A stretch of DNA of 64,000 nt from Acidobacteriota bacterium (GTDB lineage: Bacteria; Acidobacteriota; Thermoanaerobaculia; Gp7-AA8). This document shows positions 12,449-38,212 of this stretch, piece after piece. The first letter of the stretch is position 1, and every line of letters begins with the position of its first letter. The DNA lies in NCBI GenBank assembly GCA_003223645.1, contig QHVT01000016.1, forward strand, positions 1-64,000. Direction: 5' to 3'. The notes beneath the pieces are model-generated. The model did no database searches and had not been told where the DNA came from. It was given only the letters and a program-made list of their open reading frames with translations. Made by a program: the position numbers and the translations under genes.

Positions 12449-12466
12449 TCAAAAGGGGGAGTTGTT

Positions 12467-12898: not shown

Positions 12899-12908
12899 AG
12901 CGGCCGTC

Positions 12909-13313
12909 TCATTCTTTCACGAGTTGGAAGCTCGCACTCCTGGTTCGCGCGCCGTCGGATTGGGCGACATTCAGAACCTCGCCGGGCCCGGCCATGCCGC
13001 GTCCGCGCGACGCGCGCTCCGCTACGGCAGATGTCTGGCACGCCGCAATCGCCATCTTCTTGCTGCCGCCGTCCGTCGTGAACTGAATTCCCCTGGCCGC
13101 GTTGCGCTCGCGATTTTCGCGGACCCATGCAAGCACACGGTCGTTCACATCATCGGCGAAGGCATTGATGGTAATGAGTCCGCGCTCGTCTGCTGGCGCG
13201 GAACAATGCAGGCCGTCGAGAACGGCCGCCGTGAAGACACCGTTCTTGCGGTCATCGAGGCACAGATATTGGTGCAAGCCATGGCGCCACGAAACATACG
13301 AGAGCCCAGACAT
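12909..13313 (-). pseudogene. Truncated caspase-like remnant (C-terminal half only)
   Basis: NGVFTAAVLDGLHCSAPADERGLITINAFADDVNDRV resembles NGYFTRAVLDGLRCRAAAANGFITPAALGAFASRRV of the 17613-18893 caspase; no catalytic His/Cys region present. Confidence 0.6.
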
Positions 13314-13381
13314 TCGAAAGTGTCGCGGCGATTCTCGAAGTCAGGCTTTATAAGATTCGCAGTGATGCTCGGTCGGAATAG

Positions 13382-18938: not shown

Positions 18939-20672
18939 GTGTCTTCTGCGAGTGTGAAACCCGCGTTGGCACTCGCGCTCCTCCTTCTCGTCGCAACCCC
19001 GGTGCGCGCCGGCTCGGGCCTCGACCTGGTCATGCTCGTCGACCGGTCGACGAGCATGGCTCGGAATCCGCGGCTCGCGTCGCTGCTATTGCGGATGACA
19101 CTCGATCTCGTGGCGCAGAACGCGCGGGCGAATCGCGTCGATCACCAGCTGGCGGTGGTCACATTTGGCGCGGCGCCGCGTATCGATCTGCCGTTCACTT
19201 CGATTCGCGCCGAAGAGCTGCCGCGCCTGCGCCGGTTCGCGGATGGCCTGCCGGCGGAAGATCGCGGGGACACGGACGTCCTCGCGGCATTCATGGCCAC
19301 GGAGAAACTCTTTCGCGAGTTGCCGGCCGATCCGTCGCGGCGTCGCGCGGTCGTTTTGTTGACGGATGGCGTGCCGTACGTGCGCGGCGTGGCGATGCCG
19401 GCGTATCGTGCCGCGCTGCAGCGCCTCGTGCACGAGCAGTTCTCTCGCGCGAACATCAGCATCGAGGTCCTACTCCTGGCGTCGGGACGCGAAGCCGCGG
19501 ACCGCCCGCTCTTGCGGGACATCGCGGGCAATGTCGAAGTGGTGAGCCGTGAGCCCGACCTGCTGCTCGCCCGCGCGCATGGCGTGCTCGCGCAGCTCGC
19601 CGGCACGCGCACGGTCGCGAGCGCGCCGGCAAAAGGGGAGGCTGCGATCGACACGCTCGTCGTTGCTCCCTATCTCGACCTCATCGTGCTCGACGTCTTT
19701 CGCGGATCGCCTGACGCCGAAGTCGCGATCTTTCCGCCGGGAAAGACGACGCCGGTCCGCGGCGGAGTCGACGGCGCGGAGTCGTTTGCGCTGGGTGATG
19801 TCATGGCCACGCTCGTCGTTCCGCATCCTTCGCCGGGCCAGTGGCTGATCCGGAAATCGAGCGCCGGCGCGCGCGTGCGTATTCTTTCCCAGCAGTTCTT
19901 TCCGCGGGGATTGCTCGTGCGTCCTCCGGCGGCCGATGCGCTCCGCCAGTACGACCGCGTGGCGATCGCCTATCGTGTGATCGACGGCAGCGGATTGCCG
20001 CTCGCGGAGCTACGGGATTATCAACTGTCGCTCGAGGTCACGCTCGTGAAGCCGAACGGCGTCTCGACCGTGGTACCGATGACGGGCGACGCCGGCAGCA
20101 AGTCGGTGTTTCGCAGCATGCAGGAAGCGGAGTGTGAGCTGGCCGGCCACTACTGGACGGACGTGCGAATCACCACCGTTGATGACGACGGGCGGCGGCT
20201 CGATGTTTTCCGCGACCGCTGGTCGGGGTTCTCGGTCGTGCCGGCGTCGCGCGTCGACTGCCGCGTCAGCGCGTCGGGAACGACGGCGTGGCTGCCGATG
20301 ACGACGCGCATCGAATGCGTCGAGGCGGGAGACCGCCCGATCGAGATGAGCGCGCTCGCGAACGGCTCGCCGGCCGATCTCTTTCACGCCGTGCTCACGC
20401 GCGAAGGCCGCAGCACCGTGGCCATGCTCCAGCTTCGCTACGATGGCGCCGGCGCGTTCGCCGGCTCGTTGCGCGGCGCGGACCGCGACGGCGCGTATCA
20501 ATTGCGGCTGGCCATCGACCGTGCGCGCCTGCGCGGCCCCTACAACATCCGCTTCGTTCCGCCGCAGCTCTCGTTCGTGCGCCGCACGCGCATCGAGTGC
20601 ATTGCCGCGGCGCTGCTCGCATGCGCGATCGCTGCCGCGATGGTTTTTCGGAGGCGCGCAACCAAATCCTGA
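18939..20672 (+). CDS. Secreted/membrane von Willebrand factor A (VWA) domain protein
   Basis: GTG start; signal peptide; LDLVMLVDRSTSM (MIDAS DxSxS); C-terminal TM ECIAAALLACAIAAAMVFRRR. Confidence 0.88.
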   Translation: MSSASVKPALALALLLLVATPVRAGSGLDLVMLVDRSTSMARNPRLASLLLRMTLDLVAQNARANRVDHQLAVVTFGAAPRIDLPFTSIRAEELPRLRRFADGLPAEDRGDTDVLAAFMATEKLFRELPADPSRRRAVVLLTDGVPYVRGVAMPAYRAALQRLVHEQFSRANISIEVLLLASGREAADRPLLRDIAGNVEVVSREPDLLLARAHGVLAQLAGTRTVASAPAKGEAAIDTLVVAPYLDLIVLDVFRGSPDAEVAIFPPGKTTPVRGGVDGAESFALGDVMATLVVPHPSPGQWLIRKSSAGARVRILSQQFFPRGLLVRPPAADALRQYDRVAIAYRVIDGSGLPLAELRDYQLSLEVTLVKPNGVSTVVPMTGDAGSKSVFRSMQEAECELAGHYWTDVRITTVDDDGRRLDVFRDRWSGFSVVPASRVDCRVSASGTTAWLPMTTRIECVEAGDRPIEMSALANGSPADLFHAVLTREGRSTVAMLQLRYDGAGAFAGSLRGADRDGAYQLRLAIDRARLRGPYNIRFVPPQLSFVRRTRIECIAAALLACAIAAAMVFRRRATKS

Positions 20673-20709
20673 CGGCAGTGTCTTTTTCGTCATTGACGAG
20701 CGATACGCC

Positions 20710-22353
20710 GTGAGACAGATCGGGCCTTACCAGATTGAAGGAGTGATCGGCGCAGGAGGGATGGGCGTCGTCTACAAAGGCCGTCACGTCACCCTCGGCC
20801 GCCTCGCGGCCATCAAGACGCTCCTTCCGGATAAAGCGGGCGACGCCGCGCTCCGTGCGCGGTTCATCGCCGAAGGGAAGGCGCAGGCGCTCCTCGAGCA
20901 CGACGGCATCGTCAAGGTCTATGACGCCTTCACCGACGGCGGCGAGCTGTTCATCGCCATGGAGTATGTCGAGGGCGAGACGCTCGCGAAGACGCTGGAG
21001 AAACTCCCTCACCACCGGATGCCGCTCGAGGAAGTGCTGGAGATCTCCACGCAATTCCTCACCGCACTCCACTACGTCCACGGCCAGAAAATCATCCACC
21101 GCGACATCAAGCCGTTGAACGTGATGCTCTGTCACGGGCGCGTGAAGCTGATGGACTGGGGCCTGGCCATCGTCGACGGCGCTCCGCGTTTCACGGTCAC
21201 GAATCGCGTTCCCGGCACGCTGCCCTACATGTCCCCGGAGCAGATCGAAGGCAAGCCGCTCGATGCACGCACCGACATTTACAGCTGGGGCGTCGTGCTG
21301 CATCAGATGCTGGCGGGTGCGCTTCCTTTCGCAGAACAGGGCATTTACGCGCGATGGCTCGGCCCGCCCGAGCTGCGCGAATTCGTCCCCGATTTGCCGG
21401 CCGGCGTGAGCGACGCCGTGAAAATGGCGTTGCAGGCGGATCCCGCGAAGCGATTCGCGTCCGCCGTCGAGCTCCGCGATGCGTTGCGTGAAGGAGCGCT
21501 GGGATTTCTCGATGTTCTGCCGCACGATTCCGACGCAACGGTGCCGTACACCGTGCCGGATGCGATCGTCGAGACGCAGCCACCGGTTTCGCAGGATCCA
21601 TCGATCTCGCGGCGCTGGGTTTGGATCGCGATCGCAGCGTGTCTCGTGGCGATGGTCTACGTGACGGTGAGTCTCTGGAACCGTCAACCCGCATTCGATT
21701 TCAGGCCGCCGCAACAACGAGGTTCATCGTCGAACGGAACGGATCGCATCGTCATCGATTTCGCGGCTCCGCTCCCTGCTGTTCTGAAAAGCCGGAAACA
21801 ACCACAGGAGGCGCCGAAGCAGCAGCCGCCGGTCGTCGACGACAGAGCCGCGACGCAACGCGCCGCGGATGATGCGACGCGGATCGAGATCGAGCAGCTG
21901 CGCGCAAGAATCGCGCTCGCCCTCAAACGCGCGGACGCGGACGTACGGAACAACAGCTTTGCGTCCGCGCGCGAACAGGTCGCGCAAGCCGAGCGGTGGG
22001 AGCAACAGTCCGCCGGCCTTTGGCAGGAGCGCGACGCGATCGAGCGAATGCGCGGCCGCATCAATGAGGCCGAGGAACTGGAGCGCGTCCACCGGCAGCA
22101 GGAAGCGATGTGGAGCTCGCGGATCGCGGATGTCGAGAGCGACCTGCGCAAAGAGCGCTGGCCGGAAGCGGAGCGGTTCGCAAAAAACATCATCGACAGC
22201 GCCGACGCGCCCGAGCCGGTGCGTGCCCGTGCCTCCGAGCTGCTGCAGCAGGCGAAGGACGGCCGCGCCGCGATCTTCAAAGAAACAGAGGTCGGGAACA
22301 CTCAAAACACGATCGTCCGGAAACCCCCGTCACCGCCGAGGAAAAACCGTTGA
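20710..22353 (+). CDS. Hanks-type Ser/Thr protein kinase with TM and C-terminal coiled coil
   Basis: IGPYQIEGVIGAGGMGVVYKG, AAIKTLL, IIHRDIKPLNVML, LMDWGLAI, YMSPEQ; TM VWIAIAACLVAMVYVTVSLW. Confidence 0.95.
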   Translation: MRQIGPYQIEGVIGAGGMGVVYKGRHVTLGRLAAIKTLLPDKAGDAALRARFIAEGKAQALLEHDGIVKVYDAFTDGGELFIAMEYVEGETLAKTLEKLPHHRMPLEEVLEISTQFLTALHYVHGQKIIHRDIKPLNVMLCHGRVKLMDWGLAIVDGAPRFTVTNRVPGTLPYMSPEQIEGKPLDARTDIYSWGVVLHQMLAGALPFAEQGIYARWLGPPELREFVPDLPAGVSDAVKMALQADPAKRFASAVELRDALREGALGFLDVLPHDSDATVPYTVPDAIVETQPPVSQDPSISRRWVWIAIAACLVAMVYVTVSLWNRQPAFDFRPPQQRGSSSNGTDRIVIDFAAPLPAVLKSRKQPQEAPKQQPPVVDDRAATQRAADDATRIEIEQLRARIALALKRADADVRNNSFASAREQVAQAERWEQQSAGLWQERDAIERMRGRINEAEELERVHRQQEAMWSSRIADVESDLRKERWPEAERFAKNIIDSADAPEPVRARASELLQQAKDGRAAIFKETEVGNTQNTIVRKPPSPPRKNR

Positions 22354-22363
22354 GAGGTAGCGC

Positions 22364-23092
22364 ATGAAACGCATCACCGTCATTTTTCTGATCGCCACGA
22401 TGCTGCTGTCTGCCTGTGTCACGACCGCACCGTCGTCAAAAGCGAATACGCCTCCCAGACCGAACAACATCAAGGAGTGGATGGCGCTCCAGAGCCGGGC
22501 GAAAAAGAAGGCACTCATCGGGGCGCTGATCGGAGCGGTCGCCGGCGGCTTGAGTGCCGGCATTGCAGGCGGCAACACCGACGACATCCTCAAGAACGCG
22601 CTCGCGGGCGCGGTGGTCGGCGCGATCGCCGGGTTCGCGATCGGCAAACGGGAGGATACGATCTTCGCCGGCCGCGATCTCGCAATCCGGCAGGCGGGCT
22701 ACGACCGCTCGCAGGGCTACATCGCGCGCGTCGAAGCGGTGACGTTCGATCCGCCGCAACCGAAGCCCGGCGAGACGGCGACGCTCTACGTCCGCTATCT
22801 CGTGCTCGGTCCCGATCCGAACGAGACGATCAAAGTGAAGATGTTCCGGGGCCTGAAATACGGCGACGACTATGTCTTCGGCGCCGGTCCGAATGAGTTC
22901 AAAGTGCCACAGGGCGGGGGTGTGGTGGAGTCGAAGCTCGATCTGGTGCTGCCGAAGAAAGCTCCGGAGGGCACGTATGCCGCCGAAGCGCTGCTCGAAG
23001 ACTCGCAGGGACGATTCCCGCAGACCCTCGGCAAGGGTGTGCTCTACATCCTCGCGCGCGCCGGAAGCCGCGGAGTGAAAACGGCGGCGTGA
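22364..23092 (+). CDS. Lipoprotein with glycine-zipper segment
   Basis: Lipobox MLLSACV; GALIGAVAGGLSAGIAGGNTDDILKNALAGAVVGAIAGFAIG. Confidence 0.8.
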   Translation: MKRITVIFLIATMLLSACVTTAPSSKANTPPRPNNIKEWMALQSRAKKKALIGALIGAVAGGLSAGIAGGNTDDILKNALAGAVVGAIAGFAIGKREDTIFAGRDLAIRQAGYDRSQGYIARVEAVTFDPPQPKPGETATLYVRYLVLGPDPNETIKVKMFRGLKYGDDYVFGAGPNEFKVPQGGGVVESKLDLVLPKKAPEGTYAAEALLEDSQGRFPQTLGKGVLYILARAGSRGVKTAA

Positions 23093-24252
23093 TGAGTCTG
23101 TCCCGCGACTCGATCCTCGCTCTGCAGCGTCATTTTCTCGGCGCGCTCAGCGAGCCTGCGCGCACGTGGCTCGAGCCCATGGCCGCCGCCCGCGTGGCGT
23201 TTGCCGGCGATGCCATTCGCATCGACGGCGAAGGATGTCTGGTCGACTTCGGCACCGTCGAATCGCCCGGTGAGGACCACCGGCTGCTGCGGGTCTCCGA
23301 GCGAGGCGCGCGCATCAGCGAACAACCGCCGTGGCTCACGGTGCGCTGGATCGATGACTCGACGCTCGCGCTCATTGCGATTCACGACACCGAGCGAGAC
23401 TTCTGCGATCCGCTTCGCTTGTCCTTCAGCGATGGCCGCAGCCAGGCGCTCCGCGTGCGCATGAGCGCCCGGCGCACGCATCCGATCGCGGAGCTCAATT
23501 TCAACGGCTGGCCGGCGCCGCATCCATTCGACTTCGGCGCGAACGAGCATCCATACGTTCTTTCGGTCGGCAATCGCAGCGGCGTCCCGCTCGTCGTCAG
23601 CTTTGCCGATCTTCCGGAATGGCTGCGGTTCGAGATCGACGACCGCTGGCGCGACGGACCGCTGCCGGGCCGGTTCTTCCGGCGCAGTGCGCCGTTCAGC
23701 GTACGCATCCGTCCGCGTCCGCGCTTCTTCGGGCGGCGAAACGGCTCGATCCATCTCCAGACGAACGATCCGAGGGCGGACATGCAATCGATCGAGCTCG
23801 CGTTCGCCGCGTGCGTCGAGCCCGCGAAGCCGTGTGTCATCTCATTTGCGCCGCAGGCAAATCGCCTGCGCGCGGATCAGAGCATGACCGTGTCGGCGCG
23901 TCTCGAAAACTGGAGTCGCTCGCCGGCTCGCGTCCACGCGCACGTCGTGCCGGCCGCCCTTCGCGTGCTGGAGTGGCCGGTCGTTCCGGCGGCGCGCGAC
24001 GGACAGCCCGGCGCGGCGATGTTGCCGATCCGCATCCTGCCGGCGCAGCTCGCGCCGGGCGCGCACGCGCTGTCAGTCTCCATCCGCGTTCTCGACGGCG
24101 AGCCCGCGGTGGTCGACGTGCCGATGCGCGTCGAAGTGACGCCCGCGCTGCCGCGTCGGACGGGCGTCAGCCGTTCCGAAATGGTCGCCGCGCTCCTCAC
24201 GCTGCTGCTCTTCGCGCTCCTCTTCGCCGTCGTCGTGCGAGGTCTCTCATGA
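23092..24252 (+). CDS. Hypothetical beta-rich protein with C-terminal TM anchor
   Basis: ATGA overlaps with both neighbours; two Ig-like segments; terminal VAALLTLLLFALLFAVVVRGLS. Confidence 0.75.
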   Translation: MSLSRDSILALQRHFLGALSEPARTWLEPMAAARVAFAGDAIRIDGEGCLVDFGTVESPGEDHRLLRVSERGARISEQPPWLTVRWIDDSTLALIAIHDTERDFCDPLRLSFSDGRSQALRVRMSARRTHPIAELNFNGWPAPHPFDFGANEHPYVLSVGNRSGVPLVVSFADLPEWLRFEIDDRWRDGPLPGRFFRRSAPFSVRIRPRPRFFGRRNGSIHLQTNDPRADMQSIELAFAACVEPAKPCVISFAPQANRLRADQSMTVSARLENWSRSPARVHAHVVPAALRVLEWPVVPAARDGQPGAAMLPIRILPAQLAPGAHALSVSIRVLDGEPAVVDVPMRVEVTPALPRRTGVSRSEMVAALLTLLLFALLFAVVVRGLS

Positions 24253-27119
24253 ATCGAGCCGCCGCGCTCGCGGAGTGCCGTTTCTGCCGTCAGTGGGAAG
24301 TTGCTTCGGACGACCTCTACTGCAGCTTCTGCGGATCGCTGTTGCTGCCGCTCGAGATTCTGTTCGAAGCGAAACCGCTGATCACGACGATCTCTCCCAC
24401 GCGCGAAATTACTTTGCGCAATGACAGCTCGCGGCCGATGCAGCTCTCCCTTCGCGCGCGCAGCGGCGGCGCGCTCGCCGCCGGCGTGACGTTCGATCCC
24501 GGAACGGATCTGGAGGTCGCGGCGAAGAGCGAAGTGCTCGTCCACGCGACCGCGGACGCGGCGAAATTGCCGCCGGGGGTTGACGGACTCGTCGAGTACG
24601 TCTGCGTCGTCGACCGCGACGAGCGCAAGCAGCGAACGTTCACGCTCGAAGTGCGCTCCGGACCGTCGCCGAAACTGCTCACGCCTCGCCTCGACTTCGA
24701 CGAGGTCGCGGAAGGGACGGCCGTTGAGCGGCTGCTCCGGCTCACGAACGCCGGCAACGTGCCGTTGGGGATCAAGAGCGTACGCGCGGAAGGATCGCCG
24801 CATCTGCGCGTCGAAGGCGATCACGCGAATCGCGCGATCAGAAAAGGCGAGACGCTGTCGATTCCCGTCATCTGGCAGAGCTCGTCCGAGACGCCCATGA
24901 CTCCCGCGGGCGAGCAGCCGGCCGGTGTTCGCATCACCTTTACGACGAACCGGCTCGACGAGTTGTTCGTGGCCGCGAGCGCGCGGATGTTCCGCTACCG
25001 GCTCGATGTCAAGCCGTCGTCGGTCCGCTTTACTCAGGCTCTGGCGAAGCACGAGTACGTCTCGCCCATCAAGTTCGAAAACAGCGGCACGGTCGATGTC
25101 GAGATCACATCGATCGAGCCCGATCAGCCATGGATTCACGTCATTGCGCGCGCGACGCGATTCACGCTGCTGTGCGCCGACTCCGTCGCTCGGCAGAAAG
25201 TGCTCTCGCCGACGACGCTTCGCGCGTTCGACTTCAAGATTGTCTGCCGTCCCGCCGACCTGACGCCCGGCAGGCATCGGGGCAACGTCACCATCCGTGC
25301 GCACCAACAGGAGCCGCTCGTGCTGCCGGTGGAGATCACCATCGTCAAGCCAAAGGAGTATCCCGACTACATCGGCATCGACTTCGGCACGACGAACTCC
25401 GTCGTCGCGGTGCTGAGCCAGAAGGACAAGAGCGGACTGGAGCTGGTGCAGGACGAGTCGTCGGGCAAAGATCTCATCCCCAGCGTGCTGGTCTTCGATG
25501 ATCCGGAGACGTACAAGATCGGCGCGGCGGCGCTGCACGAGGCCGACGCCGCGCCCGACCGGACGGTTCGCTCGATCAAGCGTGTGATGGGCTACGAGCG
25601 CGATCGCAATTTTTTCGACCGCCCGTATTCCGCCGCGCAACTGGCGTCGTTGATCATCCGGAAGCTCGTCCTGCTCGCGGAGCGAAAGCTGCAGGCCGAA
25701 TCGACGAACGGCACGCACTTCACCGTGCGCAAGGCCATCATCACCGTTCCCGCGAATTTTCACGACCTGCAAATCCGCGACGTGCTCGAGGCCTGCGACG
25801 CTGCCGGTCTGGACACTGAAGAAGAGCGCGCGCAGAAGGTCGCGGAGCGGCAGGGCGCGCAGATCGGTGAGGCCGTGAACGCCGGGATCATCCTCGACGA
25901 GCCCTCGGCCGCGGTCCTCTATTACATCGATCAGCTGCGGCACTCGCGCGGCGCCACGGAGATGGCCAAGGCCATTGGGCGCGAACAGGGGCTGAAGCTC
26001 CTCGTCTTCGATTATGGCGGCGGCACGCTCGACGTGGCCGTGGCCGGCGTGACGCAGGTGAACGGTGGCGGCACCGGCCTGCGAATCCTCGCCAACATGG
26101 GCGACAACGCGATCGGCGGCGATCAGATCGACGTGCTCGTGATGAGCGAGCTATTGCGCCGCTGCAAGCACGAGCTGCGGGACTTCGAGTTCGACACCTC
26201 GCTGATCACCGGCACGTTCCGCGACTTCCAGCGCCGCAGCGAGGCCGAAGGCTGGAACGGCCACGTCTGGCGGGAACTGATGGGCGTTCGCGCGCAGTGG
26301 AAGGATCTGGCCGAGAAAGCGAAGATTCAGATCAGCGGAAAATCCCAGCCGGCGATCGACGTGCGTCCCGATTTGATCGTGCGCCTCGCCGGCGGAGCGA
26401 TCGAGCGCGCCCCCCGGGGCGCCAGGATTCCGCCGCTCGCGTCGGAGCTGGTGAGCGAGCTGCTGCAGCCGGTGCTCGCGCGCAGCGAAGAGTTGATCAA
26501 ACAGGCGCTCGCGCTCGCGGAAGTCGGCGCGAACGACATCGACTACATCCTCCACACCGGCCGGCAGAGCCTTCTGCCGCACGTTCGCCAGCGCGTGCGC
26601 GCGCTCTTCCCGAATCTCGACGACAAACACGATCTTCTCGAGGAGCAACATCTGAAGATCTGCGTTGCCAAAGGGGCGGCGCTCTATGGCTCGATGCGCG
26701 ACCGGCTCGTCGCGCCCGAAGCGCGGATCGTCCTCCTCAGCGAAGGGCGGCGCCTGCCGCACAGCTACGGCGTCGAGAAATTCACCAACATGGTCGAGCC
26801 GGAGTTCGACGAAGTCATCGAGCGCGGCGCGAAGTATCCGGTCGAGCGGACGAAGCTCTATCCGGCGGACATGATTCCGGTGAGCGGCTATCTCAATCTC
26901 AACTTCTACCAGAACACCGGTGTCAGCAAGACCATCGTCGGCAACCGGCAGGTGAGCCGGATCGGCCAGATCTCGATCGACACCGCGCACGACGGCAACT
27001 CGGGCTGCCAGGTCACGTTCGCCGTCGGACCGAACCGCACGTTGCATGTTTCCGCGAACGGCAATCCCGTGACCATCGAGCCCGCGCGCCTGCACGAAGA
27101 AGAGAGCTGGATGGGATGA
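24249..27119 (+). CDS. Zinc-ribbon + Ig-like repeats + Hsp70 (DnaK-like) fusion lacking the C-terminal lid
   Basis: CRFCRQWEVASDDLYCSFCG; repeated beta modules; YIGIDFGTTNSVVAVL, AIITVPANFHDLQ, GIILDEPSAAVLYY, LLVFDYGGGTLDVAV, IDYILHTGRQSLLPHV; ends just after SBD-beta-like strands. Confidence 0.93.
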   Translation: MNRAAALAECRFCRQWEVASDDLYCSFCGSLLLPLEILFEAKPLITTISPTREITLRNDSSRPMQLSLRARSGGALAAGVTFDPGTDLEVAAKSEVLVHATADAAKLPPGVDGLVEYVCVVDRDERKQRTFTLEVRSGPSPKLLTPRLDFDEVAEGTAVERLLRLTNAGNVPLGIKSVRAEGSPHLRVEGDHANRAIRKGETLSIPVIWQSSSETPMTPAGEQPAGVRITFTTNRLDELFVAASARMFRYRLDVKPSSVRFTQALAKHEYVSPIKFENSGTVDVEITSIEPDQPWIHVIARATRFTLLCADSVARQKVLSPTTLRAFDFKIVCRPADLTPGRHRGNVTIRAHQQEPLVLPVEITIVKPKEYPDYIGIDFGTTNSVVAVLSQKDKSGLELVQDESSGKDLIPSVLVFDDPETYKIGAAALHEADAAPDRTVRSIKRVMGYERDRNFFDRPYSAAQLASLIIRKLVLLAERKLQAESTNGTHFTVRKAIITVPANFHDLQIRDVLEACDAAGLDTEEERAQKVAERQGAQIGEAVNAGIILDEPSAAVLYYIDQLRHSRGATEMAKAIGREQGLKLLVFDYGGGTLDVAVAGVTQVNGGGTGLRILANMGDNAIGGDQIDVLVMSELLRRCKHELRDFEFDTSLITGTFRDFQRRSEAEGWNGHVWRELMGVRAQWKDLAEKAKIQISGKSQPAIDVRPDLIVRLAGGAIERAPRGARIPPLASELVSELLQPVLARSEELIKQALALAEVGANDIDYILHTGRQSLLPHVRQRVRALFPNLDDKHDLLEEQHLKICVAKGAALYGSMRDRLVAPEARIVLLSEGRRLPHSYGVEKFTNMVEPEFDEVIERGAKYPVERTKLYPADMIPVSGYLNLNFYQNTGVSKTIVGNRQVSRIGQISIDTAHDGNSGCQVTFAVGPNRTLHVSANGNPVTIEPARLHEEESWMG

Positions 27120-28567
27120 GAGCGCAGCTGATCCTCGATTGCGGAGGCCGCGTGCTGTCAGCGCTGCTTGTGACGGCAGATGGACAACAAGTGCCGTGCA
27201 GCCAGGACATCCGATTCGTCGCGGCGCGCTATGTCTCTGCGGATCTGCTCTACGAGCCGCGTGTTGCCGAGGCCGAGGACTTCATCTGGGAAGACGCGCT
27301 CGAGACGGTAGCAAAGGCGACTGCGCGCGATTTCTTTCAGCGGGCGCGCCGCATCGGCCTCCGGCGGCCATGGGACGCGCAGGCTTCCGAGCGGGCCTTG
27401 CTGCTGGCGTCGCCGCTGGCGGTGCTCTCGTCCGCCGTTGCGTTGACCGACCGCGCCGCGCGCGCATCGCTGCCGCGCGTGGCCATGGCGCTCCTCGACG
27501 CCATGCTCGATCCGGCGTTTTCGTTTCTCGCCGAGCGGCAGATCGCGTTCGCCGAGATCGATCCGATCGTCATTCTCCCGGCGCAGGTGGGGCGGCACGC
27601 GCGGCTGGTGCTGCAGAAGCTCTTTCGCCGCCGTGGCTTTCGTCCTCCCGCAATCGTGAGCCGGGATCTCGCGGCCGCGGTGGCGCGGATCGATGAGCCG
27701 CCAGGCGAATGCCTCGTCCTCGATGCATCGGATGAGCATCTGCATCTCCATCGCGTGTCGATCGAGGGCGGCGAGAACGAGCGGCGGTTCCGCACGCTTG
27801 CTTCCACGACGTGGCCGGCGCTCGGCTGGAATCATTGGAGCGCGCGCATCGCCGAGGCACTGCACGTCACCGCCACGGCGGCCTTCGATCGCGCGTTGAT
27901 CTCGCTGCTCACCGGCTCGCCCGATTCGCTCAAGCCGAGACTGACCCATGGAGCGTTGCAAAGCGCGCTCGATGATGCGTGGGTCGCGGCGCAGCGGAAC
28001 GAGATCGCTGGCCGGTTGCGGGAAATCGATGTGAGCGGACTGCGCGTGCTTTTTGCCGGCGAGCTCTTCGCGCTCGACGCCGTCCGCGCGGTCTTCGGAG
28101 GAAACGGGGTGACCGGCACACCCGTTCTCGATCAAGCCGCCGGCGGCATTGCGGGGGCGTTGCGCTGGCTTCGCGCCGCGGAGGAGCGGCAGCTCGTCCT
28201 CGTGCCCGGCGGAGGGCTGCGCGTCAACAACTTCCATGGCGAAGCGATCGAGCTCGTCTCACCGGAACAGCTCCCCGCCGCCGGCGAAGCGTGTTTCGTC
28301 GAAACCGACTTGCGATTTGCCGGCGAGGCCGCGAAGTCGTTCGTGATGCATTTGCAGTGGGGCGCGGACCAGACGCCGGAAGGAAACGCGACGCTCTGCG
28401 CGATGCCGCTCGAGCTGCGCCGCGACTCGAATGATCTTCGGCTGAGCGTGCATCTTCGCCGCAGCCGGAGCGGCCGCCGGTTGCACGGAACCGTCGAAGC
28501 GCGCATGGCGCGCGGCGTCGTCGCGGCGCAGGCGCAGTTCGCCGAAGAGCTGGAGGTGAGGAGATGA
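27116..28567 (+). CDS. Degenerate Hsp70/actin-fold ATPase-like protein
   Basis: ATGA overlap; LILDCGGRVLSALLVT, CLVLDASDEHLHLHRVSI and LRVLFAGELFALDAVRAVFG at positions expected for phosphate/adenosine motifs of Hsp70, with key residues altered. Confidence 0.6.
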   Translation: MRAQLILDCGGRVLSALLVTADGQQVPCSQDIRFVAARYVSADLLYEPRVAEAEDFIWEDALETVAKATARDFFQRARRIGLRRPWDAQASERALLLASPLAVLSSAVALTDRAARASLPRVAMALLDAMLDPAFSFLAERQIAFAEIDPIVILPAQVGRHARLVLQKLFRRRGFRPPAIVSRDLAAAVARIDEPPGECLVLDASDEHLHLHRVSIEGGENERRFRTLASTTWPALGWNHWSARIAEALHVTATAAFDRALISLLTGSPDSLKPRLTHGALQSALDDAWVAAQRNEIAGRLREIDVSGLRVLFAGELFALDAVRAVFGGNGVTGTPVLDQAAGGIAGALRWLRAAEERQLVLVPGGGLRVNNFHGEAIELVSPEQLPAAGEACFVETDLRFAGEAAKSFVMHLQWGADQTPEGNATLCAMPLELRRDSNDLRLSVHLRRSRSGRRLHGTVEARMARGVVAAQAQFAEELEVRR

Positions 28568-29973
28568 TGAATCGATCCTTGATGGTCGGGCTGTTGCTGA
28601 TTTCGCTGGTGGTGTTCGCCGCGGTGGGGGAGGTGTCGAAGGAAGGCAACCCTGCCACACCAACACCGGACAGTTCCAACACGACCACGGCGTCCGATGC
28701 CACAAACACGTCCGCCACGACCACGACGCCTCCGCCGGGCAATCCTGCGCCGCATGTCACCACGACCGTCCGTCAAACAAGACCGGTAACGCAAACGGCC
28801 CATCCGGTTGCTGCCACAGAAACCACGCCGACCACCACCGCCGCTGCCGCGCCGGTGATCACGACGACCACCGCTGCGCCGCCGGCTGCCCCGGTCCCTG
28901 CGAAACCCGTCGTCCATCCGATCCCTCCGACTCGGCCGCAATCACTGCCGTGGTGGCTGCTCACACTCCTCATCCTGAACACGCTCCTCGCGCTGACGGC
29001 CGTCGCGTTGCTCGCGCTCCCGCTCTTCAAACCGAAACCGCAACCGAACTTCGACGATACGGAGCTCGGAAGACGGCTGGCCCGGCTCACCGAGAGAATC
29101 GGAGACGTCCAGGCATTTCTCAGCGACAAGATCCAGAAGCGCGGCGACGAGTTGCACGAAACCATCGCGAAGCACGTCACACGCGAGCAACTCGATGCCG
29201 AGCTGCAGCCGGTGCTCGCCCACGTCGCCTCGCTCGATCACACCATCGAGGAAATCGCGACCGCGCCGCCGACGACGTCGTCCTCTCCCGTCGACCCGAC
29301 TGCCATCGAGCATCAGGTTCTCGGCGAGTGCTGGAAACAGTTCCGCGACCACAAGGAGCTCAGCGCCGCGTTCGACGCCGCGCTCCACGACAGCTCATGG
29401 GACGGATTGCTCACCGATCTGGGGAAGCTCGTTCCCGACGATCTGAGGCCGTCATTCGACAATGTCGTCGCCCCCTGCCGCGAGTACCGCACGCTCGTCC
29501 GAAAAGTCAGCCTGATTCCGCAAATCGTCAGCGGAGAGTTGAAGCGGCTCGGTAGCGACGCCGAGGAAGTACGCAGGACGCGCGAGTACGCGAGCCTCCT
29601 CGCGTCGATGCAGAGCGGCGACAACGGCAATCGTCTGAATTTCCGATTCAAGAGCTGGATCACGGACAGCTTCCTTCCGTTCGCCGATCTCTATCTGCAG
29701 CGCTATCAGCAGGCCCAGCTCGAAAGCCGCCATCGCGAGATGCAGCGGGGCGTGCAGCTCGTCCGCCAGTTGCTGCACTTCGCCGCCGTCGAGCCGATCG
29801 AGGTGACCCTCGGTGAGACGGCCTTCGACAGCGCGCTGCACATCGGCCGCTCCACTACGAACGACCCTCGCTTCTCGGATGGTGTCATTACCGGTGTGGT
29901 GAGGAATGGGTTTGTCGAAGGAGGGCAGCAGGTGATTCGGCACCCCGAGGTAATCGTCAACCGGATGCGGTGA
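28564..29973 (+). CDS. Membrane-anchored protein with Thr/Pro-rich ectodomain, coiled coil and GrpE-like C-terminus
   Basis: Signal/TM; T/P-rich 60-120; TM WWLLTLLILNTLLALTAVALLALPLF; coiled coil; C-term LRQLLHFAAVEPIEVTLGETAFDSALHIG...VVRNGFVEGGQQVIRHPEVIVNR resembling the GrpE beta-wing. Confidence 0.65.
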   Translation: MMNRSLMVGLLLISLVVFAAVGEVSKEGNPATPTPDSSNTTTASDATNTSATTTTPPPGNPAPHVTTTVRQTRPVTQTAHPVAATETTPTTTAAAAPVITTTTAAPPAAPVPAKPVVHPIPPTRPQSLPWWLLTLLILNTLLALTAVALLALPLFKPKPQPNFDDTELGRRLARLTERIGDVQAFLSDKIQKRGDELHETIAKHVTREQLDAELQPVLAHVASLDHTIEEIATAPPTTSSSPVDPTAIEHQVLGECWKQFRDHKELSAAFDAALHDSSWDGLLTDLGKLVPDDLRPSFDNVVAPCREYRTLVRKVSLIPQIVSGELKRLGSDAEEVRRTREYASLLASMQSGDNGNRLNFRFKSWITDSFLPFADLYLQRYQQAQLESRHREMQRGVQLVRQLLHFAAVEPIEVTLGETAFDSALHIGRSTTNDPRFSDGVITGVVRNGFVEGGQQVIRHPEVIVNRMR

Positions 29974-29985
29974 CGGGAGAACAAC

Positions 29986-31260
29986 GTGACCTGTGCCTAT
30001 TCGGTTCCGAATTGCACATCGGATGTCGCGGCAGACGCGCAGCGATGCCGCTGCGGCGGCTTCCTGAAGCGCTGCCCGCGCTGCGATACGCGCAACCGCG
30101 GGTTTGCGAACTTCTGCCGCGCCTGCGGATCGGTGTTGCCGCCGTCGGCGCAGAACTGGACGGCCTACAAAGGGAGCGCACGCCGTCTCGGCGTCAGCGG
30201 GTCCGCAAGGGGTCCGGCGAGCCTCGCCGAGAACGTCACGCTTCGGCTGCGCCTTGGCGACGAATGCCGCAGCCTTCTCGCCTGCGACGGCGTGCTGGTG
30301 GCGATCTCACTCGCCGGCGTCGTGGAGATCGCCGATCCGCGGCGTGCGGCGAGTCTCTGCCGCTTCCAGGTGCAGGGACCGATCACCGCCGAGCCTTGCA
30401 TCCGCAACGGGATGCTCTATCTCGGGACGCGCGGACAGCTGACCGCTTATGCGCTCGCTCCCATGACCGCGACGACGCCGCGCGTGCAGCCGGTGTGGCA
30501 AATGCCGATCGTCGGCACTCCCATTCACGCGCTCACCGCGGCCGGCAATCGCCTGTTCGTCACCGTCGCTTCGTCGGGCTGGCGCGACATCCAGGTGATC
30601 GATTCGATTCACCGCCCGCAGCCGGCACCGGCGCGCACGCTGTTCGGTGCCGCGAATGCGGGTTGGCTCGCCGCCGATGCCGCGGGAAGGGCGGTTTTCT
30701 TCTCCGAGGATGTGCAGGGCGTGCAGTTGCACGTCTTTGACCGCGAACTGACGACGCATCCCGTCTCGCTGCGGTCGCTCGTGGAGCAGCCGATCGCGCT
30801 CCTGGGCGACACGATCTTCGGCATCTTCGGCGAGGAGCATCGTCTCTATCGCATCGATGCGGCGACGGGCAGCATCGCCGAGCCGCTCGATGCCGACACG
30901 CAGCTCTTCGCGCTCACCCACGCCGGCGAGGACGAATGGGATCGCGACGGCGCGCGCATCGACACCCGCGGGATCTCCTTCCTTCGCTCCGGAATTCATG
31001 ACGGCTTCGGACCGCACGAGTGGGCCACCCGCGGCTCACCGCTGATCGTGCAGGGTTGCGCAGTCGTCATCGGCATGGATGACGGGCGCGTGCGCGTCTA
31101 CGACCTCGCACACCTCCCGCGTCACGAGGCGTGGCTCGTCGGCGGCAACGGCGGCGTCGCGATCACCGCGCTCGCTTCATTCGAGACCTTTCTCGCGGCC
31201 GGCAACAAAGAGGGAATCGTCGAAGTGCGCGAGCTGCGGACGCCAGGAGCGAAACAATGA
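29986..31260 (+). CDS. Zinc-ribbon + PQQ/WD-like beta-propeller protein
   Basis: GTG start; CRCGGFLKRCPRCDTRNRGFANFCRACG; repeated propeller-like blades (LLACDGVLVAISLAGVVEIADPRR, GMLYLGTRGQLTAYAL). Confidence 0.75.
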   Translation: MTCAYSVPNCTSDVAADAQRCRCGGFLKRCPRCDTRNRGFANFCRACGSVLPPSAQNWTAYKGSARRLGVSGSARGPASLAENVTLRLRLGDECRSLLACDGVLVAISLAGVVEIADPRRAASLCRFQVQGPITAEPCIRNGMLYLGTRGQLTAYALAPMTATTPRVQPVWQMPIVGTPIHALTAAGNRLFVTVASSGWRDIQVIDSIHRPQPAPARTLFGAANAGWLAADAAGRAVFFSEDVQGVQLHVFDRELTTHPVSLRSLVEQPIALLGDTIFGIFGEEHRLYRIDAATGSIAEPLDADTQLFALTHAGEDEWDRDGARIDTRGISFLRSGIHDGFGPHEWATRGSPLIVQGCAVVIGMDDGRVRVYDLAHLPRHEAWLVGGNGGVAITALASFETFLAAGNKEGIVEVRELRTPGAKQ

Positions 31261-33029
31261 CCCGACGTATCGCGATTGCGATTTCGCTCGTTTTGCTTGC
31301 GGCCGCCGCGCACGCGGCCCCGGCCCTCAGGCCGGGCGATCCGGTGGCCGTGCGCATTCTGTACGACAACTCCGGCAGCATGTATCCCGGCTATCGTCCG
31401 CCGGGCGATCCGGCTCGTCGCAGCAGGGCCGACCTCGGCTCGCGCTACGTTCATCAGTCGCCGGCGTTCGTCGAGTGGCTGGGCGATTTCGTTCAGCGGC
31501 AGACGCTCCTCGACGGCGCGACCGCAGGGATGTGGACCTTCACGTCCACCGGAGCCTTCACGCCGAATGACATTCAACAGGTGCATCCGGTGGTGCCCCT
31601 CCGCGAGTTCGACGCCGCCGCGGCAATCGGCCGTTTTCCCAATCACACCGGCGACAACACGTATCTCACCGAAACGCTCACCACCTTCACGCGCGATTTC
31701 ACCGGTTTGATCTGGCTGATCACCGACAACATCGTCGAGACGGATGCCGGACAACCGGACGAAGGCGTACGGCGGTTTTTCGACACGCTCGCGCGGCAGA
31801 ATGAGTTCCGTTCCGTTCATCTCTTCAAGTACACCGTCGAAGAAGGCGGACACACCGCCGCGCTCGCGGTGTACGGCATCCTCGTCTCGGCATCGGATGT
31901 TTCTCCTGAAACGCTCGGGTACTACGACGCCAGGTTCCTGACACTGCTCGAGGCCCGCCGGGGCGCGCGGGGCGGCGAGCTCTTTCCGGGCCGCGAATAT
32001 CTCAAGCTGAAGAACCTGGCCATCGATCCGTTGGTACTGAGTGCCGACCTGCAGCTCGTCCTCTCCGACCAGGACAAAGGGATGTTCAAGGAAGGGCAGA
32101 GCGTCCAGCTGGATCTGGAGGGCGAGATTCGCAGCCGTCTGACGCAGCACTCCGTCACGGCCGGCCGCTACGAGCTCGCGGTGGCGACGACGTTTCAGCC
32201 GGAGATGTGGGCTCAGCGCGACCTCGGTGCGCAATCGCTCGCGCCACAGGTGTTCGATGCCGCGAGCGGAGAGATCCAGGAAGAGATTCCGCCGAAGGGC
32301 TCGCGCCGCGTGCACGTGCGGCTCAGCTCCACGCAGCCGGTGTCCTTCACGCCGAGCGGCCTAGGTGAATGGCTGCGCCTCGCGTGGAATGGCGCGGCAG
32401 TCCGTTACACGGGCTCGGTGCGCATGTCGTTCACCGACGTGAGCGTCCGCCTCGAGCGGCAGCAGATGGCCGGCATCTTCGGCATCGATCAGGCGTCGAC
32501 AATCTTCGATTTCCAGGACGTGCGGACGCTGCAGCAAGTGCGTCCGAGCGTCGTACCGGTGAGCTTCTCACTGCGGACGGGCTCGAGCCGCACCGCGATT
32601 CTGCTGGTGGCGCTCGCGCTCCTCGCGGCGATCGGGGTGCTGCTCGCGATCCTGCTGGCGCGCAAGCAATCGTTCGACATCACCATCACGCGCGGGCCGA
32701 CGGCCACGATCGAACTGCGCCGCCTCGGCACGCATCGCGTGATCTTCGATCAAAAGGTCCTCGGCCGCTTGTCCCGCGGTCTCGTGAACGGCTACGCCTT
32801 CGATCCGGTCGCCGGCGATCGCAGCGTCATGGTCATTCCGTCCTCGATGCCCGGCACATGGGACGTGAAGTTCACCGGCGGCAACAATCATCAACTCTCC
32901 ATCAAATCGAAAAGCGGCACGTTGAATCAGGCGGACGAGCCGAAAAAGAAGCCCGGAACGCCGCCGCCGCCCCCGCCGCCACCGAAAAGCAGCCTGCCTC
33001 CGCGCACACCCAAGATCGGCAACCGTTGA
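31257..33029 (+). CDS. VWA-like membrane protein with cytoplasmic FHA-less beta tail and Pro-rich C-terminus
   Basis: Signal peptide; VRILYDNSGSMYPGY; TM TAILLVALALLAAIGVLLAILLA; GTPPPPPPPPKSSLPPRTPK. Confidence 0.8.
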   Translation: MTRRIAIAISLVLLAAAAHAAPALRPGDPVAVRILYDNSGSMYPGYRPPGDPARRSRADLGSRYVHQSPAFVEWLGDFVQRQTLLDGATAGMWTFTSTGAFTPNDIQQVHPVVPLREFDAAAAIGRFPNHTGDNTYLTETLTTFTRDFTGLIWLITDNIVETDAGQPDEGVRRFFDTLARQNEFRSVHLFKYTVEEGGHTAALAVYGILVSASDVSPETLGYYDARFLTLLEARRGARGGELFPGREYLKLKNLAIDPLVLSADLQLVLSDQDKGMFKEGQSVQLDLEGEIRSRLTQHSVTAGRYELAVATTFQPEMWAQRDLGAQSLAPQVFDAASGEIQEEIPPKGSRRVHVRLSSTQPVSFTPSGLGEWLRLAWNGAAVRYTGSVRMSFTDVSVRLERQQMAGIFGIDQASTIFDFQDVRTLQQVRPSVVPVSFSLRTGSSRTAILLVALALLAAIGVLLAILLARKQSFDITITRGPTATIELRRLGTHRVIFDQKVLGRLSRGLVNGYAFDPVAGDRSVMVIPSSMPGTWDVKFTGGNNHQLSIKSKSGTLNQADEPKKKPGTPPPPPPPPKSSLPPRTPKIGNR

Positions 33030-33451: not shown

Positions 33452-36400
33452 ATGAATCTCGACCCCCTCCTGCAAGCAAGCCTTCCCCAAACCCTCGTCA
33501 GCGACAAGCCGGTCGGACCGACGATGATCATCGGCCTGGGCGGCACGGGAAAAGAGGTCCTGCTGCGCCTGCGCCGCAAGATCATCGAGCGTTATGGAGC
33601 GCTTTCCCGGCTGCCGTTCCTGCGCTTCATGCACGTCGATACCGACAAGACGCTGAACGCGACGGAACAATACGACCTCCGCGGCGGCGACGATCCGCTC
33701 ATCCGTGAAATACAGTTCTCCAATGCCGAGCGCGTGGATCTGACGATTACGGGCGGAACCGGCAAGTACGTCGATCATCTCAACAACTACCCCAGCGTCA
33801 AGCGATGGTTTCCGGGCGGCAGCAAGATCGCCCATCTCGGCGATTTGAAGGACGGCGCCGGACAGGTCCGCATCGCCAGCCGCCTCGGTTTCTTCGACGC
33901 CTTCAATCATCAGAAGATCACCGGCCGCCTGGCGCAGTGCCGCAGGGAGCTCAGCGAGACTTCCATCCCCTCGGAATCGAGCGCGCTCGGATTCGACTTC
34001 AACGCCCAAAACTCGAGAGTCGTCATCGTCGCGTCGATCGCAGGCGGTACGGGCAGCGGCACCTTCCTGGACATGGGCTATCTCGTGCGCCGTTATTTCC
34101 CCGAGGCCGAGCGCATCGGGATTCTGCTCCTGCCCGGATTCTTCAGCGGATATCCGGGAGCGGAGCGCGTGCGTGCGAACGGATATGCCGCGCTGATGGA
34201 GCTCAATCACTACACCTTCCGCCATACCTTCATCGCCGACTGGACGGCCACGCAGAGCGAGCGCATGGGACCGCCGCCATTCAGCAGCACGTACCTGATC
34301 GACAACAAGAACGAGGCCGGCCTTGCCATCGGCTCCGGCGGAAAAGATCAGAAAGAGCTCGACGCCTACCGCATGGTGGCGGAGGTGCTGTATCAGGACT
34401 ATTCGGTCGGCGCATTCGCCAGCCACAAGCGCGCCATTCGCGTGAACCTCGAGCAGTTCAACCTCAATGTGTACCGCCACAACTTCCTCAATGAGGCGCT
34501 GCTGCGCAATGACGCGGAAACGCACAAAGGAATCGTCGGCGACGCGTATCCGTGCCGGTTCGGATCGTTCGGCCTGGCGACGATCGCGTTTCCGACGGAG
34601 CGCGTGCAGAGTGCCTGCGCCAGCCGCCTGGCCTCGAAGATTCTCGACTATTGGCAGAAAACCGCCGTCGACGATCCGATCGAATATCTCTTCACGAAGT
34701 TCCTCACGGATCAGCGGGTGCTCTGCGCCCAGGGAACGTACGAGCGGCGCGACGGCGCGGGCGTCGTCGATCAAAACGACATCGAAGACGCGCTGATGGT
34801 CTATGACGCCGGCAGCGGCCGCACATTCAGGGATTTTCTCTGGGAAAAAGCGCAGGCGCTGCGCGTGGAGCTCGAATCGACTCCGAACGGCAAGAAGGCC
34901 GAGCGCCTGCGCGAACGGCGGGCCGAGCTCGATCAGTTCTATACGGCCGAGGACTCGGAATATCCGGATGAATGGGGCGTCGGCATCCGCCATCTCGATC
35001 AGAACATGCGCTCCTATCTCCAGCGGGTGAAGGACGGGATCGAGGCCAAGGCAGGCGAACTGGCCAATCACCCGCAATACGGCGTCAGCTACACGCTCAA
35101 GCTGCTGCAGACGTTCAAGACCCTGCTGCGCAATGAGACGTTCCGCTATATGCAGCATTTCGACGATCAGGTGCCGGTGTGGGTGGAGCGGATGCAGTAC
35201 TACTCGAACGCGCTCGACGAGATGCAGCGCGACGTCGCGCGCCACGAAGAGGAATTCCTGTTCCGCCCCGCCGATCTGAAGCGCGACTACGAAAAACTCG
35301 TCGGCGACGGGAAGGACGACGACGATCGCGGCGCGTTCTTCGATCACTTCTATGCCCGCGCCGGCAAGCAGGTAGCCAAGCGCGGCAAGTGGGTCTGTGA
35401 ACAGCTCGAGGCATTCCTCGGCCCCGATCACGAAGGGGGCGCCGGTCTGCTCGGCCGCTACCACGATCTCGTGGCCGGCTTTGCGCGGCTGAAAGACCAT
35501 CTGCAGAAGAAAGAGGCGTATTACACGAAGCAGGAGGCGTCGGACCTGACGCTGTCGCTCTATCGCGACGGCGACGTCGACGAGTGGTATCGCACGTGGA
35601 TCGGGGAGGGGGCGGCGGAGGTGCAGAACCTCAAGAACATCGGCGGGCAGATGCTTTCCGAGGTGTTCGAAGTCGACGGCGTCAGCGCGGCGCTGGAAAA
35701 AATTCAGCGCACGCCGGTGGAAACGGTGGAGGAGATGATGTTCGCGAAGTGCCGCGCCGTCGTCGTCCACCACAATCGCCAGCCGGACGCGCTGACGATG
35801 CTGTTCGACGCCAACCGGATCGATACCCGCCAGCGCATCGACATGGTCCGCCAAGCCTATCGCCTCGCCAAAGTCTGGGTCGCGCCGAGCGAGCGCGGAT
35901 TGGAGCACACCGGGCTTCCGCCGGTGAGCATCGATCAGCGGCCGGTGCTCATCGGATTCGACGATGCGGCCAATCCGCAGCGCGTTTCCGACTTCGTCAA
36001 ACTCGTCGAGGGCGCGCAAAACACGGGCGACTCACCGTTGACGTTCAAGAACATCGGCCAGCAGCACCGCGGAATGATCGTCTTCTATCATGAGCTCGCG
36101 GGCGTCCCGGCGTTCTATCCGAGCTCCGTCACCGATGCGCACGGTCTGCGGGCCGCCTATAACGCGTTCCCGGAAAAAGAAGAGCTGCACACGGACAAGA
36201 ACCGCTTCCAGTTCGGCGATCTGATTCCGAAGGACGACAATGAGGCGCGCCAGTACACCGATTCCCTGCGCGCTTTCGTCCTCGGGCGCGTGCTCGGCAT
36301 CGTGGAAGCGAATCAATCGCCGAGCGACGGCGACCAGCTCGTCTATCGCTACAGCTACAAGCTGGTCAAGGATCTCGACGTTCAGGAAATCCCTCTCGGC

Positions 36401-37429
36401 GGCGAAGCGCACGCGGTCGATTACCTCTGGCGCGACAAACGCGCCGAACATCTGACGCACCGCCGCTATCTGCTCGAGAAAATCGAGAAGACGATTCAGG
36501 TGCTGCGCGATCAGAAGAAGCTGGCCGTCTACAGGCTGCTTCTCGACTTTTACATGAAGAAGGTCTATCCGCCGGTCGATCGCCTCGAGAGCGGAATTCC
36601 CGATCTGACGATGACCCAGTATTCGCCGGAATATGCGGTACTCGACGGAGCCAAGGACCGGCTCACGCAGATCATCGGCGATCACGAGCAGTTCCAGCAA
36701 CAATTCCGGGGCATCGCCCAGAAGAATCTCGAGGATCCGCTCACGTACGAGGAGTACGCCAAAGCGCTCGAGCCGTACTGTAAGACGGCCGGCAAATATG
36801 CAGATGATCCGGCGCTCGTCGTGGTCCATCGTGGTGTTGAGTGGCGGGATGTCTTCGCGCTCGACATCAACAAGGCCGATAAGAGCGCGGCCAAGGCGAA
36901 GGAACAGATGCCGCCGCCGCGTCCGGCGAGCCCCGCTGTCCCGGCCGACCGGCCGTTCGGCGAGCGCCCGTGCCCGAATTGTGCGAAGCCGATCGATCAG
37001 CGCGCCATCCGTTGTGCGCATTGTCAGAAAACAATTGCCGTCCACGTCGCCTGTCCCCATTGCCAGGAGCCGCGCGTACCGAGCGACCTGGAGCACTGCT
37101 TCAAGTGTGGCCAGCGGATGCGCCAGGACGAGCCGGTCGATTGCCCGCAGTGTTTCAACTTCAGCGGCTACGAGGAGCAGTTTCCGTGTCCTCAGTGCGG
37201 CTACGACCTGAAAACGGGATCGACCGCCCCGCCGTCGATCGGGACTCCGATTCTTAATGTCCGTACAGCGGCGGAGGAGGGCGGCGGCAACGGCAAGGCC
37301 GGGCCGTCCGTCAGCGTCGCCGAGCCGGCGATAGCCACGATCCCGCTCGTACAGTGCACGGTTTGTTATGAAAAAGTCGTCCCCGGTCCGACGTGCTCAG
37401 AGTGTTCCAGTCCCTTGGAGGTGAGGTAA
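33452..37429 (+). CDS. Tubulin/FtsZ-superfamily protein (tubulin-like) with multiple C-terminal zinc ribbons
   Basis: AGGGAG before ATG; MIIGLGGTGKEVLLRLRRKI N-term, VVIVASIAGGTGSGTFLDMGYLVRRYF (GGTGSG tubulin signature); C-term with many CxxC pairs (CPNC, CAHC, CPHC, CFKC, CPQC, CPQC, CTVC, CSEC). Confidence 0.88.
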   Translation: MNLDPLLQASLPQTLVSDKPVGPTMIIGLGGTGKEVLLRLRRKIIERYGALSRLPFLRFMHVDTDKTLNATEQYDLRGGDDPLIREIQFSNAERVDLTITGGTGKYVDHLNNYPSVKRWFPGGSKIAHLGDLKDGAGQVRIASRLGFFDAFNHQKITGRLAQCRRELSETSIPSESSALGFDFNAQNSRVVIVASIAGGTGSGTFLDMGYLVRRYFPEAERIGILLLPGFFSGYPGAERVRANGYAALMELNHYTFRHTFIADWTATQSERMGPPPFSSTYLIDNKNEAGLAIGSGGKDQKELDAYRMVAEVLYQDYSVGAFASHKRAIRVNLEQFNLNVYRHNFLNEALLRNDAETHKGIVGDAYPCRFGSFGLATIAFPTERVQSACASRLASKILDYWQKTAVDDPIEYLFTKFLTDQRVLCAQGTYERRDGAGVVDQNDIEDALMVYDAGSGRTFRDFLWEKAQALRVELESTPNGKKAERLRERRAELDQFYTAEDSEYPDEWGVGIRHLDQNMRSYLQRVKDGIEAKAGELANHPQYGVSYTLKLLQTFKTLLRNETFRYMQHFDDQVPVWVERMQYYSNALDEMQRDVARHEEEFLFRPADLKRDYEKLVGDGKDDDDRGAFFDHFYARAGKQVAKRGKWVCEQLEAFLGPDHEGGAGLLGRYHDLVAGFARLKDHLQKKEAYYTKQEASDLTLSLYRDGDVDEWYRTWIGEGAAEVQNLKNIGGQMLSEVFEVDGVSAALEKIQRTPVETVEEMMFAKCRAVVVHHNRQPDALTMLFDANRIDTRQRIDMVRQAYRLAKVWVAPSERGLEHTGLPPVSIDQRPVLIGFDDAANPQRVSDFVKLVEGAQNTGDSPLTFKNIGQQHRGMIVFYHELAGVPAFYPSSVTDAHGLRAAYNAFPEKEELHTDKNRFQFGDLIPKDDNEARQYTDSLRAFVLGRVLGIVEANQSPSDGDQLVYRYSYKLVKDLDVQEIPLGGEAHAVDYLWRDKRAEHLTHRRYLLEKIEKTIQVLRDQKKLAVYRLLLDFYMKKVYPPVDRLESGIPDLTMTQYSPEYAVLDGAKDRLTQIIGDHEQFQQQFRGIAQKNLEDPLTYEEYAKALEPYCKTAGKYADDPALVVVHRGVEWRDVFALDINKADKSAAKAKEQMPPPRPASPAVPADRPFGERPCPNCAKPIDQRAIRCAHCQKTIAVHVACPHCQEPRVPSDLEHCFKCGQRMRQDEPVDCPQCFNFSGYEEQFPCPQCGYDLKTGSTAPPSIGTPILNVRTAAEEGGGNGKAGPSVSVAEPAIATIPLVQCTVCYEKVVPGPTCSECSSPLEVR

Positions 37430-37432
37430 GCC

Positions 37433-38212
37433 ATGGCTCGCTCATCGCCTGTGCGCGCTCTCACGGTGCTGTTCCTGCTGTTCTTTCTTGGGTTGGCGGT
37501 GACGGTGTTCGCGTTCGTCGACCTGCAATGGACGCATGTCGTCCTGGTCAAGATTCCCGACGCCAAATCGGGCAAGGGGGTGCGGGCGGCGAGCGTCGAC
37601 CCGCAGCAGTTGCAACGCCTGCGGCAGAGCATTCTCAATGTGCGCGTGCAGTGCATCAGCGGCGAGAACACCGGAACCGGCTTCATTGTGAAGCCGGGAT
37701 TCGTCGCCACGGCCGCGCATATTTTCGGCGACCGGCGTCTGTGCAGCGGTCCCATTCGCCTCGTCGACTACAAAGGCCTCGAGCACATCGCCGAGGTGGC
37801 GGGGGTATCGGACGACGACGATCTCGCCGTGCTGAGCATTCCCGACGTCCTGCTCCCGGCACTGGCACTCGCCGATGCGACCCGCTATGAAGCCGCCAAT
37901 GACGTCGTCCGCGTCGTCACGATCGGCTATCCGCTCGAGCAGCAGGGAGCGTCCGCCCGCGACAGCGCGTCGGTGTCGGGAGAGGGCAGCCTTTCCCGCT
38001 TCATCCGCGATCGCAACGTATTCGTCACCTCGGGACTCAATCTGAATCCCGGCAACAGTGGCGGTCCGATTTTCATCCGCGACAACTGGACCGTCCTCGG
38101 CATCGCCCGCGCGAAACTGCCCAACACAGTCGGCGAAGGGATCGGATACGTCGCTTCCGTTCGCGCGTTCGAGAGCTTTTTCCGCGAGAAGACTGGACAG
38201 GAACTGCGATGA
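37433..38212 (+). CDS. Membrane-anchored trypsin-like serine protease
   Basis: N-term TM; GTGFIVKPGFVATAAHIF (His), DDDLAVLSI (Asp), NLNPGNSGGPIF (Ser). Confidence 0.93.
   Translation: MARSSPVRALTVLFLLFFLGLAVTVFAFVDLQWTHVVLVKIPDAKSGKGVRAASVDPQQLQRLRQSILNVRVQCISGENTGTGFIVKPGFVATAAHIFGDRRLCSGPIRLVDYKGLEHIAEVAGVSDDDDLAVLSIPDVLLPALALADATRYEAANDVVRVVTIGYPLEQQGASARDSASVSGEGSLSRFIRDRNVFVTSGLNLNPGNSGGPIFIRDNWTVLGIARAKLPNTVGEGIGYVASVRAFESFFREKTGQELR

Follow-up and report, generated by a model that had tools for sequence, protein, structure and literature searches.

We describe here a predicted membrane protein, encoded within an Hsp70 operon of an Acidobacteriota bacterium, whose C-terminal domain is diverged but almost certainly homologous to GrpE and which probably acts as an inner-membrane-tethered nucleotide exchange factor for the Hsp70 of its own operon. 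The gene occupies positions 28564-29973 (+ strand) of the window, by which we mean the whole stretch of 64,000 nucleotides analysed here (contig QHVT01000016.1), and encodes 469 amino acids. The known GrpE forms are soluble, and no description of a transmembrane-anchored GrpE was found in the literature searched, with most subscription papers lying outside that search. GrpE itself has been described as the sole known kind of bacterial Hsp70 exchange factor (PMC4753570). If our reading is true, bacteria also confine the Hsp70 cycle to a site in the cell by anchoring its exchange factor, and a membrane-anchored GrpE encoded with an unusual Hsp70 of its own offers a way into the Hsp70-tubulin-vWA operons, which are poorly understood.

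The open reading frame is a real gene and part of a tight operon. Its start codon (ATG 28564) overlaps the stop codon of the gene before it in the sequence ATGATGA, a GGAG stretch is found directly 5' of the ATG, and 12 nucleotides separate its stop from the start of the next gene. The surrounding run of + strand genes extends from a kinase gene (20443) to about 39279. Both the reading frame and the C-terminus quoted in the earlier note lie where that note had placed them. The protein starts with a hydrophobic, signal-like segment (residues 1-26, positions 28564-28641, Kyte-Doolittle peak 2.51), followed by a Thr/Pro/Ala-rich segment (residues 25-125, positions 28636-28938) that contains 28 T, 21 P and 17 A among its 101 residues and is predicted to be extracytoplasmic. 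A predicted transmembrane helix (residues 127-156, positions 28942-29031, Kyte-Doolittle peak 2.45) leads into a long C-terminal part (residues 163-469). This part begins with a long-helix, possibly coiled-coil region (residues 163-235, positions 29050-29268), indicated by helices in a low-confidence AlphaFold model and a weak apolipoprotein-type match, and ends with the GrpE-like domain (residues 369-466, positions 29668-29961), which corresponds in sequence to the helical-bundle end and the beta-wing of GrpE by PF01025, hhalign and residue comparison. The signal-like start together with a single transmembrane helix predicts, by the usual topology rules, that the C-terminal part is cytoplasmic and the N-terminal part outside. 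Three other genomes of the same class contribute four further members, giving a family of five proteins in four of the 149 genomes of the class. A signal-like segment and an equivalent transmembrane helix are present in 5/5 members, so that the membrane anchor proposed in the earlier note is predicted for every member found. The Thr/Pro-rich ectodomain, in contrast, belongs to the window copy only, as the other members carry different N-terminal parts.

Homology of the C-terminal domain to GrpE is taken as established because Pfam, profile-profile comparison with shuffles and reverse search agree. In hmmscan, residues 369-466 match PF01025 with E=4.7e-5 and 23.6 bits (cut-off 25.8), and the same place scores 25.9 bits against this cut-off in a genome-wide GrpE search. 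GrpE is the top Pfam family at the same C-terminal place in 5/5 members, with E-values of 7.1e-3 and 2.7e-4 for the two copies in genome G405, 3.7e-3 for G449 and 1.6e-6 for G463, the last homologue exceeding the cut-off of 25.8 with 28.4 bits. When the five-member family was compared by hhalign with 31 canonical GrpEs from the same class, the score was 46.3 (E 5.9e-7, probability 92%), while 200 column shuffles reached at most a score of 23.7 and a probability of 7.9%, and the reversed alignment scored 13.6. Conversely, a search of 396 genomes of the phylum with the family profile hit 14 loci outside the family, all of which are canonical GrpE genes (111-164 bits). Thus, the likeness to canonical GrpE exceeds chance in both directions. 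The earlier note had read GrpE into this C-terminus and had proposed a profile search as the test; a GrpE match was found and the reading holds. Two of its motif spellings differ from the protein: the Gly of 'G-VEPI' is absent (the protein reads AAVEPI), and 'VIRP' is actually VIRHP. GrpE was not retrieved in profile searches of the sequences of solved structures (PDB), where the best hit (4rv1), a designed repeat protein aligned in six weak pieces, was taken as chance. AlphaFold models built from three input rows have low confidence (pLDDT 46 for 307 residues; pLDDT 52 for 120 residues, with a helix-helix-strands order), and a Foldseek search with the 120-residue model returned no credible match.

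The putative partner, encoded two genes upstream (24249-27119, +), is itself unusual. It combines a zinc-ribbon-like N-terminus, Ig/ASH-like repeats, an ATPase domain in which the phosphate motifs GIDFGT and D-x-G-[GA]-G-T are kept, and an SBD-beta. The protein ends about 19 residues past the point aligned with DnaK 489, and we therefore describe it as having an SBD-beta without alpha lid. Between the two genes lies a protein without Pfam match (27116-28567, +), for which no counterpart was recognised at the same place in the other three operons. By eye it resembles a degenerate Hsp70, an assignment that we rejected, since hhalign gives it a probability of 0.4%, no better than shuffles. On the 5' side, a protein of unknown family, judged by sequence and Pfam scan, immediately precedes the Hsp70 gene (23089-24252, +), and a Ser/Thr kinase reading frame recognised by Pfam (20443-22353, +) starts the cluster. 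Downstream follow four conserved neighbours on the + strand: a double zinc ribbon/beta-propeller-like protein (29986-31260; Pfam and synteny), a vWA-like membrane protein with a DNSGSM motif and no Pfam match (31257-33029; synteny), a Tubulin_2 protein with C-terminal zinc ribbons (33452-37429; Pfam and synteny) and a trypsin-like protease (37433-38212; Pfam and synteny). None of the operon genes scanned was recognised as encoding a J-domain protein. Further upstream on the + strand, the window encodes a CHAT-domain protein (7452-10778, 3.4e-53), a caspase-like protein (14844-17063, 1.1e-22) and a vWA protein (18939-20672).

G405 (L034), G449 (L060) and G463 (L061) have the same succession of Hsp70, GrpE-like, zinc-ribbon/propeller, vWA-like, Tubulin_2 and trypsin genes, the zinc-ribbon/propeller gene of G463 being recognised by its place and a similar N-terminus only. 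G405 (contig JAHZIX010000010.1, Deltaproteobacteria bacterium isolate P_S1_bin.14) carries two GrpE-like genes in tandem (L034:9929-12055 and 12116-14059), whose N-terminal parts do not resemble the Thr/Pro segment of the window copy. Searching the 396 genomes of the phylum with the family profile yielded no member outside the class, and single-protein searches of related genomes, like searches of genome contigs, plasmids and viral contigs, found only L054, which is the same G405 contig. Six additional GrpE-like genes fetched from the class likewise adjoin an Hsp70 gene (6/6). At L093 (G450:C391), a fusion of TPR and GrpE lies beside another Hsp70, and the same 10 kb also encode a caspase-like protein and a CHAT protein. 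The genome of the window also encodes, on contig C50 (L119:3407-7006 of G000), a second Hsp70 that is 51% identical to the operon Hsp70 and fused to a TIR domain and a HATPase_c_4-type domain; the 20 kb fetched for this locus revealed no GrpE-like gene. Two further Tubulin_2 matches occur at another locus of this genome (L053, G000:C21:223155-226565).

Comparison with the 31 canonical GrpEs separates kept from changed positions. The family retains the helix Asp (31/31 canonical GrpEs, 5/5 members), the Phe and His of F-x-x-x-x-H, the Gly-aromatic pair (G-[YF]) and two C-terminal Val, positions that vary little or not at all among the canonical GrpEs. The FDP Pro and the HEA Ala, both found in 31/31 canonical GrpEs, are replaced in the five members by S/S/S/R/S and G/G/G/G/V, respectively, and the Pro of the RPA motif is changed as well. 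In the structure of human mortalin with GrpEL1, P172 and A177 contact Arg107 and Val110 in the IB lobe of the Hsp70, and the alpha lid of mortalin is the partner of the second GrpEL1 beta-wing (PMC11685456). Judged from motif spacing, P172 and A177 would be the FDP Pro and the HEA Ala. The operon Hsp70s have H/E/S/Q in place of Arg107 and D/R/R/M in place of Val110, the two sites being located by counting back from the conserved KR motif. Both sides of the contact thus appear changed, in agreement with either re-specialisation of the pair or loss of the contact. For this reason we keep the possibility that the protein is a GrpE-derived anchor or docking subunit, which brings the operon Hsp70 to the membrane and has lost nucleotide exchange activity. 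The replaced invariant residues, the differing Hsp70 positions that face them and the missing lid would all agree with this; however, the beta-wing scaffold residues are kept in all members and a change on both contact sides is equally compatible with re-specialisation, and we regard the loss of exchange activity as the less probable outcome, albeit one to be taken seriously.

The genomic context bears on the question which Hsp70 is served. A normal GrpE gene is present on another contig of the same genome (164 bits), so that a GrpE-type head could in principle meet a normal DnaK and tether general chaperone activity to the membrane, the operon Hsp70 not being its partner. However, the GrpE-like gene occurs only together with the operon Hsp70, which lies upstream of it in 4/4 carrier genomes, and residues that would touch a canonical Hsp70 are lost, which makes action on the housekeeping DnaK quite improbable; the pairing with the operon Hsp70 proposed in the earlier note is supported by a neighbouring Hsp70 for all members found. 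Even less credible is that the protein is no GrpE relative but a helical coiled-coil membrane protein whose short beta tail matches GrpE by chance, as the weak single-sequence scores, the absence of GrpE from the solved-structure hits and the low-confidence models might suggest, since five members share the same top family, the hhalign score lies far beyond the shuffle distribution and the reverse search yields GrpE genes only.

A tethered exchange factor for the operon Hsp70 therefore remains the reading that we favour, in which a diverged GrpE would have been converted to a single-pass membrane protein. With a signal peptide and a transmembrane helix, its N-terminal part would lie outside and its C-terminal part would be cytoplasmic. 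In the cytoplasm, the long helices and the GrpE-type bundle-plus-beta-wing head, presumably as a dimer, may dock onto the operon Hsp70 at its ATPase domain. If the head works as GrpE does (PMC4753570), the beta-wing would enter the cleft of the Hsp70 like a wedge and open it, leading to release of ADP. The anchored protein suggests that the operon Hsp70 is switched at the inner membrane, and its cycle would then be tied to the place where other membrane proteins of the operon, the vWA-like one among them, reside. More tentatively, the tethered GrpE family could have co-evolved with the lidless Ig-Hsp70, and a machine of Hsp70, tubulin and vWA proteins at the inner membrane might thereby answer to a signal from the envelope. 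Given that caspase-like and CHAT proteins are encoded nearby and a TIR-Hsp70 elsewhere in the genome, this might be a cell-death or anti-invader system.

With GrpE, the nucleotide exchange factor of DnaK (PF01025; mitochondrial Mge1/GrpEL1), the family shares the bundle-end and beta-wing sequence with its D, F, H, G-[YF] and V positions, and its genes adjoin an Hsp70. Unlike GrpE, it has a transmembrane anchor, a signal peptide, an extracytoplasmic part and an extra helical region of about 200 residues, and it has lost the FDP Pro and the HEA Ala. Its putative partner also differs from that of GrpE in the absence of an alpha lid and in having Ig-like and zinc-ribbon parts at the N-terminus. 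Yeast has an Hsp70 exchange factor tethered to a membrane, the BAG-domain protein Snl1, which is anchored in the ER membrane (PMC3962485); the analogy is one of arrangement only, as the BAG fold is unrelated and the site is the eukaryotic ER. Similar in gene content are the GAP1-N2 GTPase-centric conflict systems, whose themes include HSP70+GrpE, tubulin/vWA, kinases, zinc ribbons and trypsin fusions (Kaur et al., 2020; PMC7159879). That study mentions GrpE once and a transmembrane-anchored GrpE not at all. No GAP1 or TRAFAC GTPase was matched by Pfam among the window proteins scanned, which were part of the window's reading frames, and hence we do not file the operon under these systems. Linked HSP70+GrpE and tubulin/vWA genes are nevertheless common to both, and the Hsp70/GrpE and tubulin themes, which do not overlap in the description of the GAP1-N2 systems (PMC7159879), stand together in this operon.
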